DNA of 64,000 nt from Agromyces aurantiacus. Its GTDB lineage: Bacteria > Actinomycetota > Actinomycetes > Actinomycetales > Microbacteriaceae. This document shows, piece after piece, positions 10,558-55,891 of the stretch (its first letter is position 1; each line of letters opens with the position of its first letter). A model generated the notes under the pieces. It had not been told where the DNA came from, made no database searches, and worked only from the letters and a program-made list of their open reading frames with translations. Location: NCBI RefSeq assembly GCF_016907355.1, contig NZ_JAFBBW010000001.1, positions 3,100,001 to 3,164,000 of the forward strand, given 5' to 3'. Position numbers and translations under genes: made by a program.

Positions 10558-10577
10558 GAGCGCCTCCTGCATGTGAA

Positions 10578-10629
10578 GAATGTTTGACATGGCCAGTGTC
10601 AAGCATTCGCGACACGATGTCAAGCATTC
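10578..10629 (-). promoter_or_regulatory. Promoter/operator with three copies of a TTGACA-containing 12-mer
   Basis: On the minus strand the 12-mer GAATGCTTGACA occurs twice, 21 bases (two helical turns) apart, at 10618-10629 and 10597-10608. A third, inverted near-copy lies at 10578-10589. The middle and inverted copies form a palindrome with a 7-base spacer. Each forward copy contains a perfect TTGACA -35 hexamer, so the repeats overlap the promoter. Best guess is the autoregulatory operator of the XRE regulator; no good -10 is obvious. Confidence 0.6.
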
Positions 10630-10666
10630 TTTACACACCGGATGTCCCGTCCCGCCACCTCGGCCG

Positions 10667-51100: not shown

Positions 51101-51754
51101 GTGACGGATCGACCGGTGATCGGCATCTTCGGGGCCGGCAAGGTGGGCACCGCGCTCGCACGCCTGCTCGTCGACGCCGGCTACGAGGTCGTGCTCACCG
51201 GATCGCCCCGCCAGACGGCACTCGAGCTGCTCGTGGGCGTCGTCGCGCCGGGCGCGCGCGTGGCCTCGCCCGACGAGCTGGTCGCCGCCGCCGACCTCAT
51301 CATCGTCGCCGTGCCGTTCGGCAAGGTCGGCACCGTGCCCTGGGCGTCCTTCGAGGGCAAGGTCGTCGTCGACGCCACCAACTACTGGCCGCCCGTCGAC
51401 GGCCACATCGCCGAGATCGACGCCGACGAGCGCTCGACGAGCGAGATCCACGCCGCCCTCAACACCGGCGCCCGCGTCGTGAAGTCGCTGAACCACCTCG
51501 GCTACCACGACATGGAGGACGACGCGATGCCGGCCGGTTCGCCCCTGCGCCGCGCGCTCGCCGTGGTCGGCGACGACCCCGAGGCGCGCCGTGCCGTGGC
51601 CCGGGTCATCGACGACCTCGGATTCGACGCCGTCGACGGCGGCGCGCTCGCGAACGGCCGGGCCCTCGAGCCGGGTCACCCCGCCTTCGGGCGCGAGCTC
51701 TCCGCCGCCGAGCTCTCGGCGCTGCTCGCCGCCGAGCGCGTGCTCGCGGCCTGA
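51101..51754 (+). CDS. NAD(P)-binding oxidoreductase (F420:NADP oxidoreductase-like)
   Basis: Rossmann-fold protein of 217 residues. The dinucleotide motif GIFGAGKVGTALARLL starts at residue 8, with LIIVAVPFGKVGTV and VVDATNYWPP typical of the F420-dependent NADP reductase-like family. The GTG start is preceded by GAAGGGG. Divergent to an LLM flavoenzyme. Its last 79 bases overlap the convergent MFS gene on the other strand. Whether it uses F420 is open. Confidence 0.85.
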   Translation: MTDRPVIGIFGAGKVGTALARLLVDAGYEVVLTGSPRQTALELLVGVVAPGARVASPDELVAAADLIIVAVPFGKVGTVPWASFEGKVVVDATNYWPPVDGHIAEIDADERSTSEIHAALNTGARVVKSLNHLGYHDMEDDAMPAGSPLRRALAVVGDDPEARRAVARVIDDLGFDAVDGGALANGRALEPGHPAFGRELSAAELSALLAAERVLAA

Positions 51755-53190
51755 ACCCGCTGGCGCAGGTCGACGAGGCCGATGAACAGCGCCACCAGGA
51801 GCAGCGCGCCGACCGCGGCCATGCCGACCGCGTAGGCCGTGTGGAACACGTCGATGCGCGCCTCCTCGCCCTGCACGCGGAAGATCGTGGAGTAGAAGAG
51901 CGAGAGCGCGATCGCCGTGCCGATCGCCGTGCCGATGCGCTGGCCGAGCTGGCCGACCGAGCCGGCGAGCCCGCCCTCGTCGACCGGCACCTCGGCGAGC
52001 GCGAGCACCTGGTTCGGCGCGATCACGAAGCCGCCTCCGGCGCCCGCGATGAGCATGACGCCCGCCATCAGCCACGGGGTGAGCCCGGGCGGGGTCGCGA
52101 TCGCCACGAGCACGAGCAGGCCGAAGCCGAGCAGGAGCAGGATGAGCCCGCCAACGACGAGCACCCGGCCCATCCGCCCCACGAGCCGCCCGCCCAGCCA
52201 CGACGTGACGGCGCTGGCCAGCGCGAACCCGATCGTCACCATGCCGGCGAACACGGGGGCCAGCCCCAGGCCCTGCTGCAGGAACAGGTTCGTGAGCAGG
52301 AACGTCGAGGGCATGGCCGCGAAGTAGGCGGTCGCGAGCATCGTGCCGTTGCGGTACGAGCGGCGGGAGAACAGGTCGAGCGGCACGAGCGGCGCGCGAC
52401 CCGACGCCGCGTAGCGCCGCTCCCACAGCACGAACGCGCCGGCCGCCGCGGCGAACGCGACGAGCGTCCACCACCGAGCGGGATCGTCGTCGGGCGAGCC
52501 GGTCGTGAACAGGAACGGCCACATGAGGCACACCACCGCGATGCCGAAGAGCACGACGCCGACGGGGTCGAGGGAGATCCGGGCGCGCTCACCCGCCGGG
52601 CGTCCCGGGAGGAGCCAGGCCGCGAACACGATCGCGAGGAGGGCGAGCGGCACGTTCATCCAGAAGATGCCGCGCCATCCGTCCTCCGGCCCCCCGATCG
52701 CGATCGCGAGACCCCCGAGCGTCGGGCCGAACGCGGTCGCGATGCCGATCGTCGCGCCGAACAGGCCGAACGCGGCGCCCCGCTCGGCGCCCTGGAACAG
52801 CTGCTGCACGAGCCCCAGCACCTGCGGCATCTGGATGCCCGCGGCCACGCCCTGGAGCAGGCGGCCCACGAGCAGCACGCCGGAGGTCGGCGCGACCGCA
52901 CAGAGCAGGCTCGTCGCCGTGAAGAGGCTGAGGCCCACGATGAACATGACCTTGCGCGAGCCCTGGTCGCCCAGCCGGCCGGCCGGCACGAGCGTGAGGC
53001 CGAACGTCAGCACGAACCCCGAGACGAGCAGCTGCAGCTCCGTTGAGCCGGCGCCGAGCGCCTCCTCGATGGAGGGCAGCGCGACGTTGACCTTCGTCAG
53101 GTCCATGATCGTGATCGCGGCCACGGCCACGCACACCCAGTACGCGCGCCAGCGCGTGTCCTTCACGACGGGGGCCTCGGTACTCGGCAT
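51676..53190 (-). CDS. DHA2-family MFS drug exporter
   Basis: Fourteen-helix MFS transporter of 504 residues, DHA2 type, which typically exports hydrophobic drugs with proton uptake. Motif A is seen as LVPAGRLGDQGSRKVMF, and motif C appears as GPTLGGLAI in helix 5. The C-terminal 27 residues are Ser/Ala-rich (STRSAASSAESSAAESSRP) and are encoded opposite the end of the convergent oxidoreductase gene (79-base overlap). The ATG at 53190 is seven bases after TAGTCT. Confidence 0.9.
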   Translation of the reverse strand: MPSTEAPVVKDTRWRAYWVCVAVAAITIMDLTKVNVALPSIEEALGAGSTELQLLVSGFVLTFGLTLVPAGRLGDQGSRKVMFIVGLSLFTATSLLCAVAPTSGVLLVGRLLQGVAAGIQMPQVLGLVQQLFQGAERGAAFGLFGATIGIATAFGPTLGGLAIAIGGPEDGWRGIFWMNVPLALLAIVFAAWLLPGRPAGERARISLDPVGVVLFGIAVVCLMWPFLFTTGSPDDDPARWWTLVAFAAAAGAFVLWERRYAASGRAPLVPLDLFSRRSYRNGTMLATAYFAAMPSTFLLTNLFLQQGLGLAPVFAGMVTIGFALASAVTSWLGGRLVGRMGRVLVVGGLILLLLGFGLLVLVAIATPPGLTPWLMAGVMLIAGAGGGFVIAPNQVLALAEVPVDEGGLAGSVGQLGQRIGTAIGTAIALSLFYSTIFRVQGEEARIDVFHTAYAVGMAAVGALLLVALFIGLVDLRQRVQAASTRSAASSAESSAAESSRPKAG

Positions 53191-53197
53191 CCGCTCC

Positions 53198-53203
53198 AGA
53201 CTA
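53198..53203 (-). promoter_or_regulatory. -10 element of the DHA2 exporter gene, leaderless
   Basis: TAGTCT on the minus strand, seven bases before the ATG at 53190. Confidence 0.5.
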
Positions 53204-53237
53204 CGCCCGCGCCGCGGACGCCCCGAGGGTGGGCGGA

Positions 53238-53930
53238 TCAGGGCTGCAGTCGTTCGAGCCGCCACCCGCCCGCGTCCGCACCGCGCTCGCGGGAGAACAC
53301 GAGCCGGTCGTGCAGTCGCGACGTGCGGCCCTGCCAGAACTCCACGCGCCACGGCCGGAGGCGGAACCCGCCCCACCGCTCGGGCCGCCGGATCTCGCCG
53401 GCGCCCGCGACCTCCTCCTCGAGTGCCGCGACGCGCTCCTCGAGTTCGGCGCGCGAGGCGATGGGCTGCGACTGCCGGCTCGCGGTCGCCGAGATGCGCG
53501 ACCCCAGCGGCCGGGTCGCCCAGTACGCGTCGGACTCCCCGTCGCCGACGCGACGGACCTCGCCCGTGACGATCACCTGCCGGTGCAGCGTGTACCACGG
53601 GAAGAGCACGGTGGCGACGGGGTTCGACTCGAGCGCCCGGCCCTTGCGCGACTCGCGGTCGGTGTAGAAGGCGAAGCCCCGGTCGTCGACGCCTCGCAGC
53701 AGCACGGTGCGGCTCGACGGCGTGCCGTCGGCGTCGATCGTGCCGAGCACCATCGCGTTGGGCTCGTAGACGCCGCGGGCGTCGGCCTCGGCGAGCCATC
53801 GGTCGAACTGCACGAAGGGGTCGGATGCCACGTGGGCCTCGTCGAGCTCCTCGGCGCCGTAGTCGGTGTGCCGGTGCAGGGCGTGCTCCAGGCGGGGCTC
53901 CGGGCGCTCGGGGTCGATCGCGTCGCTCAT
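53238..53930 (-). CDS. pdxH: Pyridoxamine 5'-phosphate oxidase
   Basis: FMN enzyme of 230 residues that oxidises pyridoxine or pyridoxamine phosphate to PLP, the last step of vitamin B6 salvage and of one synthesis route. Signatures are DPFVQFDRWLAEA, SSRTVLLRGVDDRGFAFYTD (FMN/PLP site) and the C-terminal WRVEFWQGRTSRLHDRLVF. The ATG at 53930 gives the family N-terminus; longer frames upstream read into the ClpN gene. It stands in the same direction as the ClpN/HTH genes, 46 bases downstream of them. Confidence 0.93.
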   Translation of the reverse strand: MSDAIDPERPEPRLEHALHRHTDYGAEELDEAHVASDPFVQFDRWLAEADARGVYEPNAMVLGTIDADGTPSSRTVLLRGVDDRGFAFYTDRESRKGRALESNPVATVLFPWYTLHRQVIVTGEVRRVGDGESDAYWATRPLGSRISATASRQSQPIASRAELEERVAALEEEVAGAGEIRRPERWGGFRLRPWRVEFWQGRTSRLHDRLVFSRERGADAGGWRLERLQP

Positions 53931-53976: not shown

Positions 53977-54426
53977 TCAGCGGCCGCGATCCGGGGCCCC
54001 GGGCTCGGCGCGCAGGGCCGCGAGGAGCTCCGCGGCCGGGTCGGGCGCCCGTCGCTCGAGCAGGGCGTGGAGCAGGTGCGTCGGCTCGATGCGGCGCGCG
54101 TGGTCGGCCGAAGCGAGGGCGAGCGTGCGCCTGAGGACGGCCTTGGCACCGGGAGTGAACGGGAGCCGCGGCGCGCCGGCGGCCCGCCCGAGGGGCCCGA
54201 ACGCGTCGGCCTCGACGCCGACGGCGGCGAGTGCATCCCGATCCAGCTGGGACGCCGCTCGCCGGGCATCGTCGGCGCCGGCGCCCACCTCGCGCGCGAT
54301 CCCGGGATCGTGGAGGACGCCGATGAGCAGCAGGTCGGTGGAGACCCGGCGGTCGCCGCGGCGACCGGCCTCCTCGACCGCGCTGGTGACGGCGGCGCGC
54401 GCCGCTCGCGCGAAACGCTCAAACAT
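53977..54426 (-). CDS. Stand-alone Clp N-terminal-domain protein
   Basis: Protein of 149 residues that is essentially one ClpA/ClpC N-domain (two repeats): MFERFARAARAAVTSAVEEA, DLLLIGVLHDPG, then FTPGAKAVLRRTLALASADH and IEPTHLLHALLERR. It has no AAA+ module, so it cannot unfold proteins. In mycobacteria, ClpC2/ClpC3, which also carry only the N-domain, bind the cyclic peptide antibiotics that target ClpC1 and act as decoys; a similar role is possible here. It overlaps the HTH gene by eight bases and is co-translated with it. Confidence 0.87.
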   Translation of the reverse strand: MFERFARAARAAVTSAVEEAGRRGDRRVSTDLLLIGVLHDPGIAREVGAGADDARRAASQLDRDALAAVGVEADAFGPLGRAAGAPRLPFTPGAKAVLRRTLALASADHARRIEPTHLLHALLERRAPDPAAELLAALRAEPGAPDRGR

Positions 54427-54637
54427 GTCGGTCCTGCTTCCCGTGCTTCGCGTGGACGGATTGGCGCGTGACTCCGAGCGCCTCGCCGATCTGCTCCCAT
54501 GACCAGCCGGCGCGGCGTGCCGCGGCGACGTGGGTCGCCTCGACGCGCTCGGCCAGCCGGTGCAGGGCGGCGACGGCGCGCAGGCCGGTCGCGGGATCGG
54601 TCTCGCGCACCTCGTCGGTCCGTCCGTCGATGTCCAT
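54419..54637 (-). CDS. Small HTH DNA-binding protein
   Basis: Protein of 72 residues with a C-terminal helix-turn-helix (ARRAGWSWEQIGEALGVTRQ, then SVHAKHGK). The N-terminal part is an acidic helix. ATG 54637 lies seven bases downstream of a CAGACT -10-like hexamer inside a 43-bp palindrome, so its transcript should be leaderless and autoregulated. The gene overlaps the ClpN-domain gene, and the two are divergent from the FAD monooxygenase. Confidence 0.82.
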   Translation of the reverse strand: MDIDGRTDEVRETDPATGLRAVAALHRLAERVEATHVAAARRAGWSWEQIGEALGVTRQSVHAKHGKQDRHV

Positions 54638-54641
54638 GCCT

Positions 54642-54684
54642 GTCAGTCTGTGTTGACAGCGCGCTCGTGTCAAGTCAGACTGAC
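54642..54684. promoter_or_regulatory. 43-bp palindrome with two divergent leaderless promoters
   Basis: Arms 54642-54658 and 54668-54684 pair at 15 of 17 positions around a 9-base centre. Each strand carries TTGACA, a 17-base spacer, CAGACT, then seven bases to the ATG of its gene (54637 minus, 54689 plus). The two promoters therefore overlap and share one dyad, ideal for control by one dimeric regulator. A smaller TGTCA...TGACA repeat (54690-54707) lies inside the first codons of the monooxygenase gene. Confidence 0.75.
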
Positions 54685-54688
54685 GAGC

Positions 54689-55891
54689 ATGTCAATCCAA
54701 ACTGACACCCAGCCGTACGACGTCGTCATCGCGGGGGCCGGTCCCACGGGGCTCCTGCTCGCGGCCGAGCTCGCCGCCGCGGGGGCAGGCACCCTCGTGC
54801 TCGAGCGCGCGGCCCACCCCGACCCGACGCCGAAGGCCAACGGCGTCGTCGGTCGTGCCGCGATCGAGCTCCGACGGCGCGGCCATCTCCAAGGCACCGG
54901 CCTGCGCCCGGTCCGGCCGCCGAGATACGGCTACGGGCCATTCACACTCCGGCTCGGTGTCGTCGGCAACCCGCTGCACGTCCTCCCGGTCCCGCAGCGC
55001 CGGCTCGAGGAGATGCTCGAGCAGGGCGCCGTCCGGCACGGGGCGACCGTCCTCCGCGCCCACCGCCTCGACGGATTCGAGCAGGACGCCGAGGGAGTCA
55101 CCGCCCACGTCACGACGGCCGACGGACGGACCGAGTTCCGCTCCGGCTACCTGGTCGGCTGCGACGGCGCGCACAGCACCGTGCGACGAGCGCTCGGGAT
55201 CGAGTTCGAGGGCACCACGAGCCCGACCATCTCCCGGCTCGCGCGGATCACGATCCCCGACGAGCGCATCGTCCGGCACCGGCACGAGCTCGCCCTGCCC
55301 GACGGGGCCCGCCTTGCCCTGTTCCGACCGAACGTCACCGAGCACGGGACGATCACCATCGCCCCCGCCCGCGCGCTCGACCCGGCCGCGCCACCGGACC
55401 GCTACCTCGTCGCAACACAGGAACCGCGAGGCGAGACCACCCCGACCGAGGATCTCGACGTCTCCGAGCTCCGCGCGAGCCTGCGCCGGGTGCTCGGCAC
55501 GGAGCTGCCGTTCACGGCGGCGCACGCGGCGCGCAGCGTGGTGCCGAACAGCCGTAGGGCCGAACGGTACCGGTCGGGACGCGTGTTCCTCGCCGGCGAT
55601 GCCGCGCACGTGTTCAGCGCGGGCGGATCGGCTCTGAACGTCGGACTCCTGGACGCCATCGCGCTCGGCGAGACGCTCGCCGAGGCGCTCGATCGGGATG
55701 GCGACGAGGCTGTGCTCGACGGCTACGAGTCGCGGCGGCGTCCGGCCGTCGACCTCGCGCTCGCGTGCACACGCGTGCAGCACGCGTTGGAGACCGCCGG
55801 CGAGGAGGGCGATGGGCTCCGCCGCGTGGCCGGCGAGCTGCTGACCGCCCGGCGGTCCGCCCGCGGCATCGCCACCCTGCTCGAGGGGTGA
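54689..55891 (+). CDS. FAD-dependent monooxygenase, class A (UbiH/rifampicin-hydroxylase-like)
   Basis: Aromatic hydroxylase-type flavoprotein of 400 residues. GxGxxG is seen in VVIAGAGPTGLLLAAELAAA (residues about 12-31), the DG motif in LVGCDGAHSTVRRALG (about 155-170) and the GD motif in VFLAGDAAHVFSAGGSALN near the C-terminus. The fold and length match enzymes that hydroxylate phenols or inactivate antibiotics such as rifamycins and tetracyclines. The ATG at 54689 is seven bases downstream of CAGACT. It is divergent from the HTH/ClpN genes and shares their palindrome. Substrate unknown. Confidence 0.88.
   Translation: MSIQTDTQPYDVVIAGAGPTGLLLAAELAAAGAGTLVLERAAHPDPTPKANGVVGRAAIELRRRGHLQGTGLRPVRPPRYGYGPFTLRLGVVGNPLHVLPVPQRRLEEMLEQGAVRHGATVLRAHRLDGFEQDAEGVTAHVTTADGRTEFRSGYLVGCDGAHSTVRRALGIEFEGTTSPTISRLARITIPDERIVRHRHELALPDGARLALFRPNVTEHGTITIAPARALDPAAPPDRYLVATQEPRGETTPTEDLDVSELRASLRRVLGTELPFTAAHAARSVVPNSRRAERYRSGRVFLAGDAAHVFSAGGSALNVGLLDAIALGETLAEALDRDGDEAVLDGYESRRRPAVDLALACTRVQHALETAGEEGDGLRRVAGELLTARRSARGIATLLEG

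Follow-up and report, generated by a model that had tools for sequence, protein, structure and literature searches.

We find that a helix-turn-helix (HTH) protein and a stand-alone ClpN protein, encoded side by side in Agromyces aurantiacus, represent, judged by their sequences, ClpC2, an autorepressor and sponge of actinobacteria, in split form. Their genes lie within the window (the whole stretch of DNA analysed, 64,000 nucleotides long) and diverge from a gene encoding an FAD-dependent monooxygenase. Putative operators are found between the divergent genes, on a predicted promoter that is the same in both directions. We consider it likely that the pair is a split ClpC2-type repressor, in which the HTH protein would read the operators, ClpN would sense or soak up a ligand, and the monooxygenase would be co-induced.

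Organization of the locus

The HTH protein has 72 amino acids, counted from the ATG, and is encoded on the minus strand at 54419-54637 in the ORF list. The ClpN protein, of 149 amino acids, is encoded on the same strand at 53977-54426. Hence, the two ORFs overlap by eight bases (54419-54426), as the first-pass annotation had reported. The ClpN protein is ClpC N-domain-like and scored 24 bits with Pfam Clp_N, for which the cut-off is 20.7. The HTH protein fell below every Pfam gathering score, the best being HTH_23 (22.6 against 24.6 bits). An AF2 model of this protein has predicted helices at residues 15-42, 47-54, and 58-65. Fold searches with the model returned only generic HTH matches. Divergent from both genes, on the plus strand at 54689-55891, is the monooxygenase gene, and the product (FMO) has 400 amino acids. 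Pfam FAD_binding_3 matched the FMO with 201 bits, from position 2 to 344 of the 349 in the profile. Since the match spans the whole core, the FMO is assigned to the predicted class A flavoprotein monooxygenases, in agreement with the earlier description.

The window genome is a single contig of 3.88 Mb. A second HTH protein of the same family was not found in this genome, where the next best match had an E value of 0.15. Other Clp_N matches in the genome were two frames, of 921 and 874 amino acids. Neighbours identified at the locus were ClpN, the FMO, and a PdxH-like protein; the trio is flanked by pdxH and tRNA-Ala. In five other genomes of the genus, no match to the PdxH-like gene (E of 1e-30 or better) was found. 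Hence, these provide no empty site with which insertion of the trio could be compared. At a Brevibacterium locus (L088), covering about 4 kb on each side, the trio is present, with no match to the PdxH or MFS proteins of the window.

The HTH and ClpN proteins resemble ClpC2 in two pieces

An HTH profile, built from 24 rows, matched PDB entry 8ada, which is the N-terminal domain of ClpC2 (Rv2667), with an E value of 3.5e-5 (chain residues 35-72). Note that the match reaches residue 72, the last of the chain, inside the HTH. The crystal fragment comprises residues 4-72, remaining after proteolysis, and forms a dimer in which D46 and R57 make a salt bridge (PMC10030653). Counted along the profile alignment, D46 and R57 align with E30 and R41 in the HTH protein of the window. 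By its match to 8ada, this protein is a homologue of the dimerisation/HTH domain at the N-terminus of ClpC2. Similarly, a ClpN profile matched the ClpC2 C-terminal domain (8ad9) with an E value of 1.9e-16.

Fused proteins link the two families. We picked 20 places, for their long open frames, from a phylum-level HTH search, and all 20 long ORFs examined encode an HTH-ClpN fusion in a single frame. With hhalign, the HTH family matched these fused ClpC2-like proteins (probability 97.7, E of 1.6e-12) and the ClpN family matched their second half (probability 99.4, E of 5.7e-21). In 16 aligned fusions, an invariant QAAQ (75-78) occupies the recognition-helix position of the HTH family. Two 19-bp sites of the CGTCAAC-n5-GTTGACG type, with three mismatches at most, are upstream of 19 of the 20 fusions. 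Given the profile links to the fusions, the window pair appears to be ClpC2 in two pieces.

This bears on the first-pass annotation, where mycobacterial ClpC2 was taken to be an N-domain-only protein. The 8ada match, and the fusions, instead place an HTH in the N-terminal domain of ClpC2. The HTH within ClpC2 is already known, and is no discovery of the present analysis, since similarity between the HTH regions of RelI and ClpC2 was noted in the 2026 RelS-RelI paper (PMC13284704). The terms "helix-turn-helix" and "HTH" do not occur in the main text of PMC10030653, as available.

ClpC2 represses its own promoter via CGTCAAC-n5-GTTGACG, often in tandem (PMC10030653). Cyclomarin A relieves this autorepression, resulting in 263-fold more mRNA in M. 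smegmatis, and is sequestered by ClpC2; the sponge role comes from drug binding by the ClpN-like domain (PMC10030653). The window system is like ClpC2 (Rv2667, or the M. smegmatis protein) in having a counterpart of the HTH-containing N-terminal domain (ClpC2 residues 1-93) and of the ClpN domain (residues 94-252). It is also like ClpC2 in its autoregulation layout, with tandem palindromic operators that have GTCA/TGAC half-sites some 27-29 nt apart. In most loci of both kinds, 1-3 nt separate the proximal operator from the start. Unlike ClpC2, the domains are encoded by two overlapping genes, rather than as one polypeptide, and the pair is therefore classed as a split variant, not ClpC2 itself. 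The operator also differs, being 18 bp (TGTCA-N8-TGACA) instead of 19 bp (CGTCAAC-n5-GTTGACG), though the two are related and similarly placed in tandem. Furthermore, the window ClpN has other residues at positions that are Glu and Arg in the C-terminal domain of ClpC2, and a divergent FMO uses the same promoter region.

Operators lie on a mirror-image predicted promoter

The first-pass annotation described one palindrome shared by the divergent genes. The palindrome is present, and there is more to it. It forms an inverted repeat of 24 nt, with arms (54635-54658 and 54668-54691) that are 83% complementary, composed of two 18-bp TGTCA-N8-TGACA operators, and a third such sequence lies over the FMO start codon. 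The putative operators, to which no strand is assigned, are as follows. Operator 1 (TGTCAGTCTGTGTTGACA, 54641-54658) overlaps the predicted -10 element of the HTH gene and -35 element of the FMO gene. Operator 2 (TGTCAAGTCAGACTGACG, 54668-54685), with one mismatch, overlaps the predicted FMO -10 element and HTH -35 element. Operator 3 (TGTCAATCCAAACTGACA, 54690-54707) overlaps the FMO start codon. The promoters are predicted from consensus only, at 54653-54681 on the plus strand for the FMO gene and 54645-54673 on the minus strand for HTH-ClpN. Each consists of TTGACA, a 17 nt spacer, and CAGACT, with 7 nt to the ATG, a leaderless layout. Hence, TTGACA-N17-CAGACT-N7-ATG reads identically in both directions, and the predicted promoter is mirror symmetric. 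Since operators 1 and 2 each cover the predicted -35 element of one gene, and -10 element of the other, a protein bound there should block transcription in both directions.

The exact TGTCA-N8-TGACA pattern occurs twice in the window, compared with no occurrences in 100 shuffles. These are also the only exact copies genome-wide, and both are at the HTH/FMO promoter. If one mismatch is allowed, there are 17 places in the whole genome (six for a reversed control pattern). These are the two exact copies and 15 places with one mismatch, namely the remaining copy at the HTH/FMO promoter and 14 elsewhere. A tighter consensus, TGTCARNYNNRNYTGACA, again with one mismatch allowed, finds four places in the genome, three of which are at the HTH/FMO promoter; the control finds one. 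As a separate observation, three of the one-mismatch sites cluster at window positions 10572-10635, before another regulator.

Pairing and operators are conserved in relatives

The HTH protein has a match, with an E value of 1e-4 or better, in 127 of 299 genomes of the family, and was found in 124 of 396 genomes in the phylum-level search. Among 72,556 plasmid records, seven have an HTH relative, and five of the seven exceed 1.8 Mb. A same-strand ClpN-type frame adjoins the HTH gene in all 30 family loci examined (the window locus and 29 others). The closest 17 of these have TGTCA-N8-TGACA operators with two mismatches at most. The remaining 13 have another tandem motif, recognized by eye, with GCAAC and GTTG arms. 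In 10 of the 13, the HTH gene is partnered by a long protein, of 311-332 amino acids, and the two such partners tested have a polyketide-cyclase/AHSA1-type domain behind Clp_N.

In a survey of named genomes, 309 stretches matched the HTH alignment. Of these stretches, 205 were relatives, and we analysed the best 80 of the 205. Note that these 80 named loci were chosen by similarity to the window HTH protein, so the figures describe its nearest relatives. ClpN follows the HTH gene in 78 of these best 80 of 205; for the other two (L125 and L128), the sequence ends within about 110 bases, at contig ends. We conclude that pairing of the HTH gene with ClpN extends across Actinobacteria.

At least two operators, with up to two mismatches, are near the HTH start in 79 of the 80 named loci (best 80 of 205). 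The sole exception, L163, has one site. With the limit set at one mismatch, 71 loci still have two or more operators, and with exact operators only, 40 do. By comparison, 1,490 control windows from the same 80 loci include 14 with one operator and none with two. Operator spacing is 27 nt in 54 named loci and 28 nt in 20 (74 together), and in 77 of the 80 the operator and the start codon are separated by 2 or 3 nt. A -35/-10 pair of similar geometry, with a spacer of 16-18 nt and 6-7 nt to the start, can be predicted in 73 of the 80.

In 14 genomes bearing the pair, exact matches to the tighter pattern are all at the HTH-ClpN promoter, but for one (G212:C5). Matches with a single mismatch, elsewhere in these genomes, number 0-2 per genome, the same as for the reversed control (0-2). 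Since operator matches in the 14 genomes are almost confined to the promoter of the pair, the regulon seems to comprise the pair and, where present, the divergent gene.

The monooxygenase is a recurrent addition to the pair

Among solved structures, the FMO is nearest to aromatic-polyketide oxygenases and rifampin monooxygenases (5kow, 5vqb, 4k2x, and 2qa1). Although the FMO is like the rifampin monooxygenases, and class A aromatic-polyketide oxygenases, in having these among its best solved relatives by sequence, it is unlike the former in falling far below NCBIfam cut-offs. The scores are 176 bits for rif_monoox (cut-off 800) and 111.5 bits for Iri (cut-off 950), and identification as a rifampin monooxygenase (Rox/Iri) was rejected. 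We see no tie between the FMO and rifamycins, which the first-pass annotation had named. A rifamycin-associated promoter element is known; a rifamycin response was rejected here, given the same shortfall in FMO scores. Rng_hyd_C is absent from the window FMO at an E value of 0.1 or better, whereas the domain is present in copies from Nocardia (L109) and Dactylosporangium (L153).

Linkage in relatives had been set as a test of the earlier proposal, which is not refuted by it. We scored an FMO as linked if it matched with more than 80 bits and was divergent to the pair. Linkage was found in nine of the 80 named loci (best 80 of 205 relatives): Brevibacterium (64% identity), Microbacterium mangrovi, a Microbacterium MAG, Humibacter, a Subtercola MAG, an Actinomycetota MAG, two Nocardia, and Dactylosporangium. 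The named genera span Micrococcales, Mycobacteriales, and Micromonosporales. The two MAGs from Subtercola and Actinomycetota have a broken FMO frame. In the other 71 of the 80, an FMO was not detected, although eight of the 80 loci have less than 1.3 kb upstream, where an FMO could be missed. Across both surveys there are 12 distinct FMO-linked loci, in three orders: the nine named loci, the window, L025, and L026. Family locus L023 is the Humibacter locus again and was counted once. In nine of the 12, the FMO start codon is 2-3 nt beyond the distal operator, mirroring the HTH side. In both Nocardia loci, and that of Dactylosporangium, a third operator lies before, or across, the FMO start.

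Similar linkage is apparent if the search starts from the enzyme. An FMO match (E of 1e-40) was found in 14 of the 299 family genomes. Five FMOs with at least 50% identity are present in the 299, and four of the five adjoin the pair; for the fifth, no operator or pair was found within its 4.2-kb locus. At the phylum level, two of 396 genomes have an FMO with an E value of 1e-75 or better, and one is the window's own. In the other (G487, 42%), neither an operator nor the pair was found in the 4.2-kb FMO locus, and the best HTH match of that genome is on another contig. On a tree of HTH and ClpN from 81 loci, with short-upstream-flank loci scored as lacking the FMO, presence of the FMO requires seven label changes, compared with a mean of 11.4 after shuffling (the minimum was nine in 500 shuffles). 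Hence, the FMO is partly clustered on the tree, and has been gained or lost several times. We conclude that linkage is strong where the FMO occurs but that most pairs are without it, and the enzyme is an add-on.

Three operators are present at four of the nine named FMO loci and at seven of the 71 without an FMO. Three of these seven are from Cellulomonas; the other four are weak or overlapping. All three Cellulomonas loci (L149, L157, and L160) have the third operator, and in this genus a divergent ABC-type ATPase takes the place of the FMO, with Pfam ABC_tran confirmed for L157. When coding-like frames were compared across loci, a divergent layout with a gene other than the FMO was repeated only in Cellulomonas. 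A 556-amino-acid frame from Glycomyces (L121) also starts just past an operator. Neighbours in Arthrobacter, Leifsonia, and Salinibacterium look like genus-level synteny.

DNA contact and ligand residues

In ClpC2, DNA contact has been assigned to the C-terminal domain, where R185A/R189A weakens binding (PMC10030653). In complementation, expression rose 2.0-fold with the equivalent Arg double mutant and 4.6-fold with the dimer mutant R57A (PMC10030653). In a rough alignment, Arg occupies the R185 position in 10, and the R189 position in 43, of 95 split ClpN rows, compared with 18 and 19, respectively, of 20 fused rows, and both positions are Ala in the window ClpN. Hence, the poor retention of these residues in split ClpN proteins favours the HTH protein as the probable reader of DNA in the split form.

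A cyclic peptide of the type that targets ClpC1 had been suggested as ligand, and we find no support for this. The cyclomarin-contact residue E89 (ClpC1 numbering) is Arg in the window ClpN, where F2 and F80 are kept. Glu is kept at this position in 25 of the 95 split ClpN rows, compared with 18 of 20 fused rows, in the same rough alignment, which has a gap at F2 in 34 of the 95. Given the change to Arg in the window, and the Glu count among split rows, a ligand other than cyclomarin is likely for the window ClpN.

Discussion

The groove of the ClpN domain recruits substrates in ClpC, and binds cyclic peptides in ClpC1 and ClpC2. In the mechanism that we propose, a dimer of the HTH protein, probably with ClpN bound, would repress transcription in both directions. 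A compound, or protein segment, occupying the ClpN groove would release this repression. The derepressed cell would then make more ClpN, to sequester the ligand, together with the FMO, which would most likely oxidise the ligand or a co-occurring aromatic natural product. Since conserved operators lie over predicted promoters in both directions, sensor and enzyme are probably switched on together. Here, we infer the HTH-ClpN contact, the direction of control, the identity of the ligand, and the FMO substrate. The first-pass annotation had proposed much the same division of labour, with ClpN as sensor or sequesterer, the HTH protein as DNA reader, and the FMO under shared control. This fits the operators, the bidirectional promoter, and the ClpC2 mechanism, but the FMO is not an obligatory part.

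The main rival is a role in proteotoxic stress, which we judge unlikely. ClpN would then detect unfolded proteins or ClpC clients, and the FMO would serve the response to oxidative or proteotoxic stress, or belong to unrelated metabolism. Heat shock causes a mild induction of ClpC2 (PMC10030653), which has also been described as engaging unfolded proteins (PMC12913811); the window ClpN lacks the Glu that contacts cyclomarin; and the 71 of 80 loci in which no FMO was detected also agree with such a role. However, the solved relatives of the FMO, as antibiotic and aromatic-polyketide oxygenases, resemble chemical defence and not chaperone outputs. The divergent ABC ATPase of Cellulomonas, beside the same type of operator, likewise resembles chemical defence.

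It is improbable that the HTH protein represses alone, with ClpN a passive sponge, or decoy, in the operon that neither contacts the HTH protein nor senses anything. The two are separate chains in the split form, the modelled HTH protein has its own predicted helices and a complete HTH, and the published sponge role of ClpC2 rests on drug binding by the ClpN-like domain (PMC10030653). Against this, pairing in 78 of 80 loci, the eight-base overlap, and natural fusions argue for physical partnership. Fusion of two domains in nature is a classical argument of this kind. Furthermore, the 72-residue HTH protein shows no further Pfam domain by which an inducer might be sensed. Finally, a toxin-antitoxin-like, or unrelated, small regulator is very improbable: the HTH profile places the antitoxin RelI (Rv2664) of RelS-RelI in the same small HTH family (9sdc, E of 4.7e-8), and some RelI homologues are at least proposed to derive from ClpC2 (PMC13284704), but the partner here is ClpN, rather than a RelE-like toxin of RelE fold, and operators are conserved, while the RelSI paper, in its available sections, reports no evidence of DNA binding (PMC13284704).

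Our preferred reading, a split ClpC2-type repressor, can be taken further, and we do so tentatively. It is possible that the locus is a sense-sponge-destroy cassette, in which a two-protein ClpC2 sensor detects natural products that target the ClpC N-domain, and one mirror promoter drives expression of a ClpN sponge together with an oxidising enzyme or, in Cellulomonas, with an ABC exporter. As part of the same proposal, the N-terminal HTH, the recognition helix of which is missing from the solved fragment, might be the main DNA reader across the ClpC2 family.

The split pair, with a putatively co-regulated FMO, extends the known ClpC2 mechanism and is not a new principle. Among the titles and abstracts listed from openly licensed literature, we found none that describes the split pair, or a monooxygenase co-regulated with ClpC2. 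The resistance mechanism known for ClpC2 of mycobacteria would be extended to a split form in many soil actinobacteria, with a candidate enzyme output at 12 distinct loci. For a family in which the ClpN domain had been assigned the contact with DNA, a defined HTH is also indicated as the reader. For unknown ClpC-targeting compounds, the system may provide a handle: any inducer of the operators would be a candidate for the ligand, and the FMO would be a candidate for an enzyme that inactivates it.

Genes and palindromes in the Agromyces window

Immediately 3' of ClpN, the stand-alone Clp N-domain gene, and on the same reverse strand, is a gene for a PdxH-like oxidase (53238-53930). A reverse-strand gene for a DHA2-type MFS exporter, with its start read at ~53190, also lies downstream (within 51676-53930). 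Possibly, the oxidase and exporter share one operon with ClpN. Note that the oxidase had no match, at E 1e-30, in five other genomes of the genus.

A different palindrome occurs elsewhere in the window. Three TGTCAAGCATTCTTTACA-like copies, spaced 21-25 nt apart, are found at 10572-10635, at the start of a reverse-strand small membrane protein gene that is followed by an XRE-type HTH gene. These are probably operators of the XRE-type regulator.

Related loci and operators in other genomes

A separate HTH-ClpN subfamily is found at ten loci (L031, L032, L034-L036, L038, and L040-L043). Here, the ClpN partner is a long protein, of 311-332 amino acids, and operators have GCAAC...GTTG in place of TGTCA...TGACA. 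Both long partners tested, of the ten, gave polyketide-cyclase/AHSA1-type matches.

In one pair-bearing genome, an exact operator-like palindrome, TGTCAACTATGGTTGACA, lies away from the pair (G212:C5:59219-59236). This may signal another ClpC2-type regulator.

In two loci of metagenome-assembled genomes (L093 and L094), the divergent monooxygenase frame is in pieces, with HTH and ClpN frames open; either decay or assembly error could explain this. In Cellulomonas (L149, L157, and L160), an ABC-type ATPase gene is divergent from the adjoining HTH-ClpN pair, and a third operator is present. The ATPase would be an alternative output to the monooxygenase.
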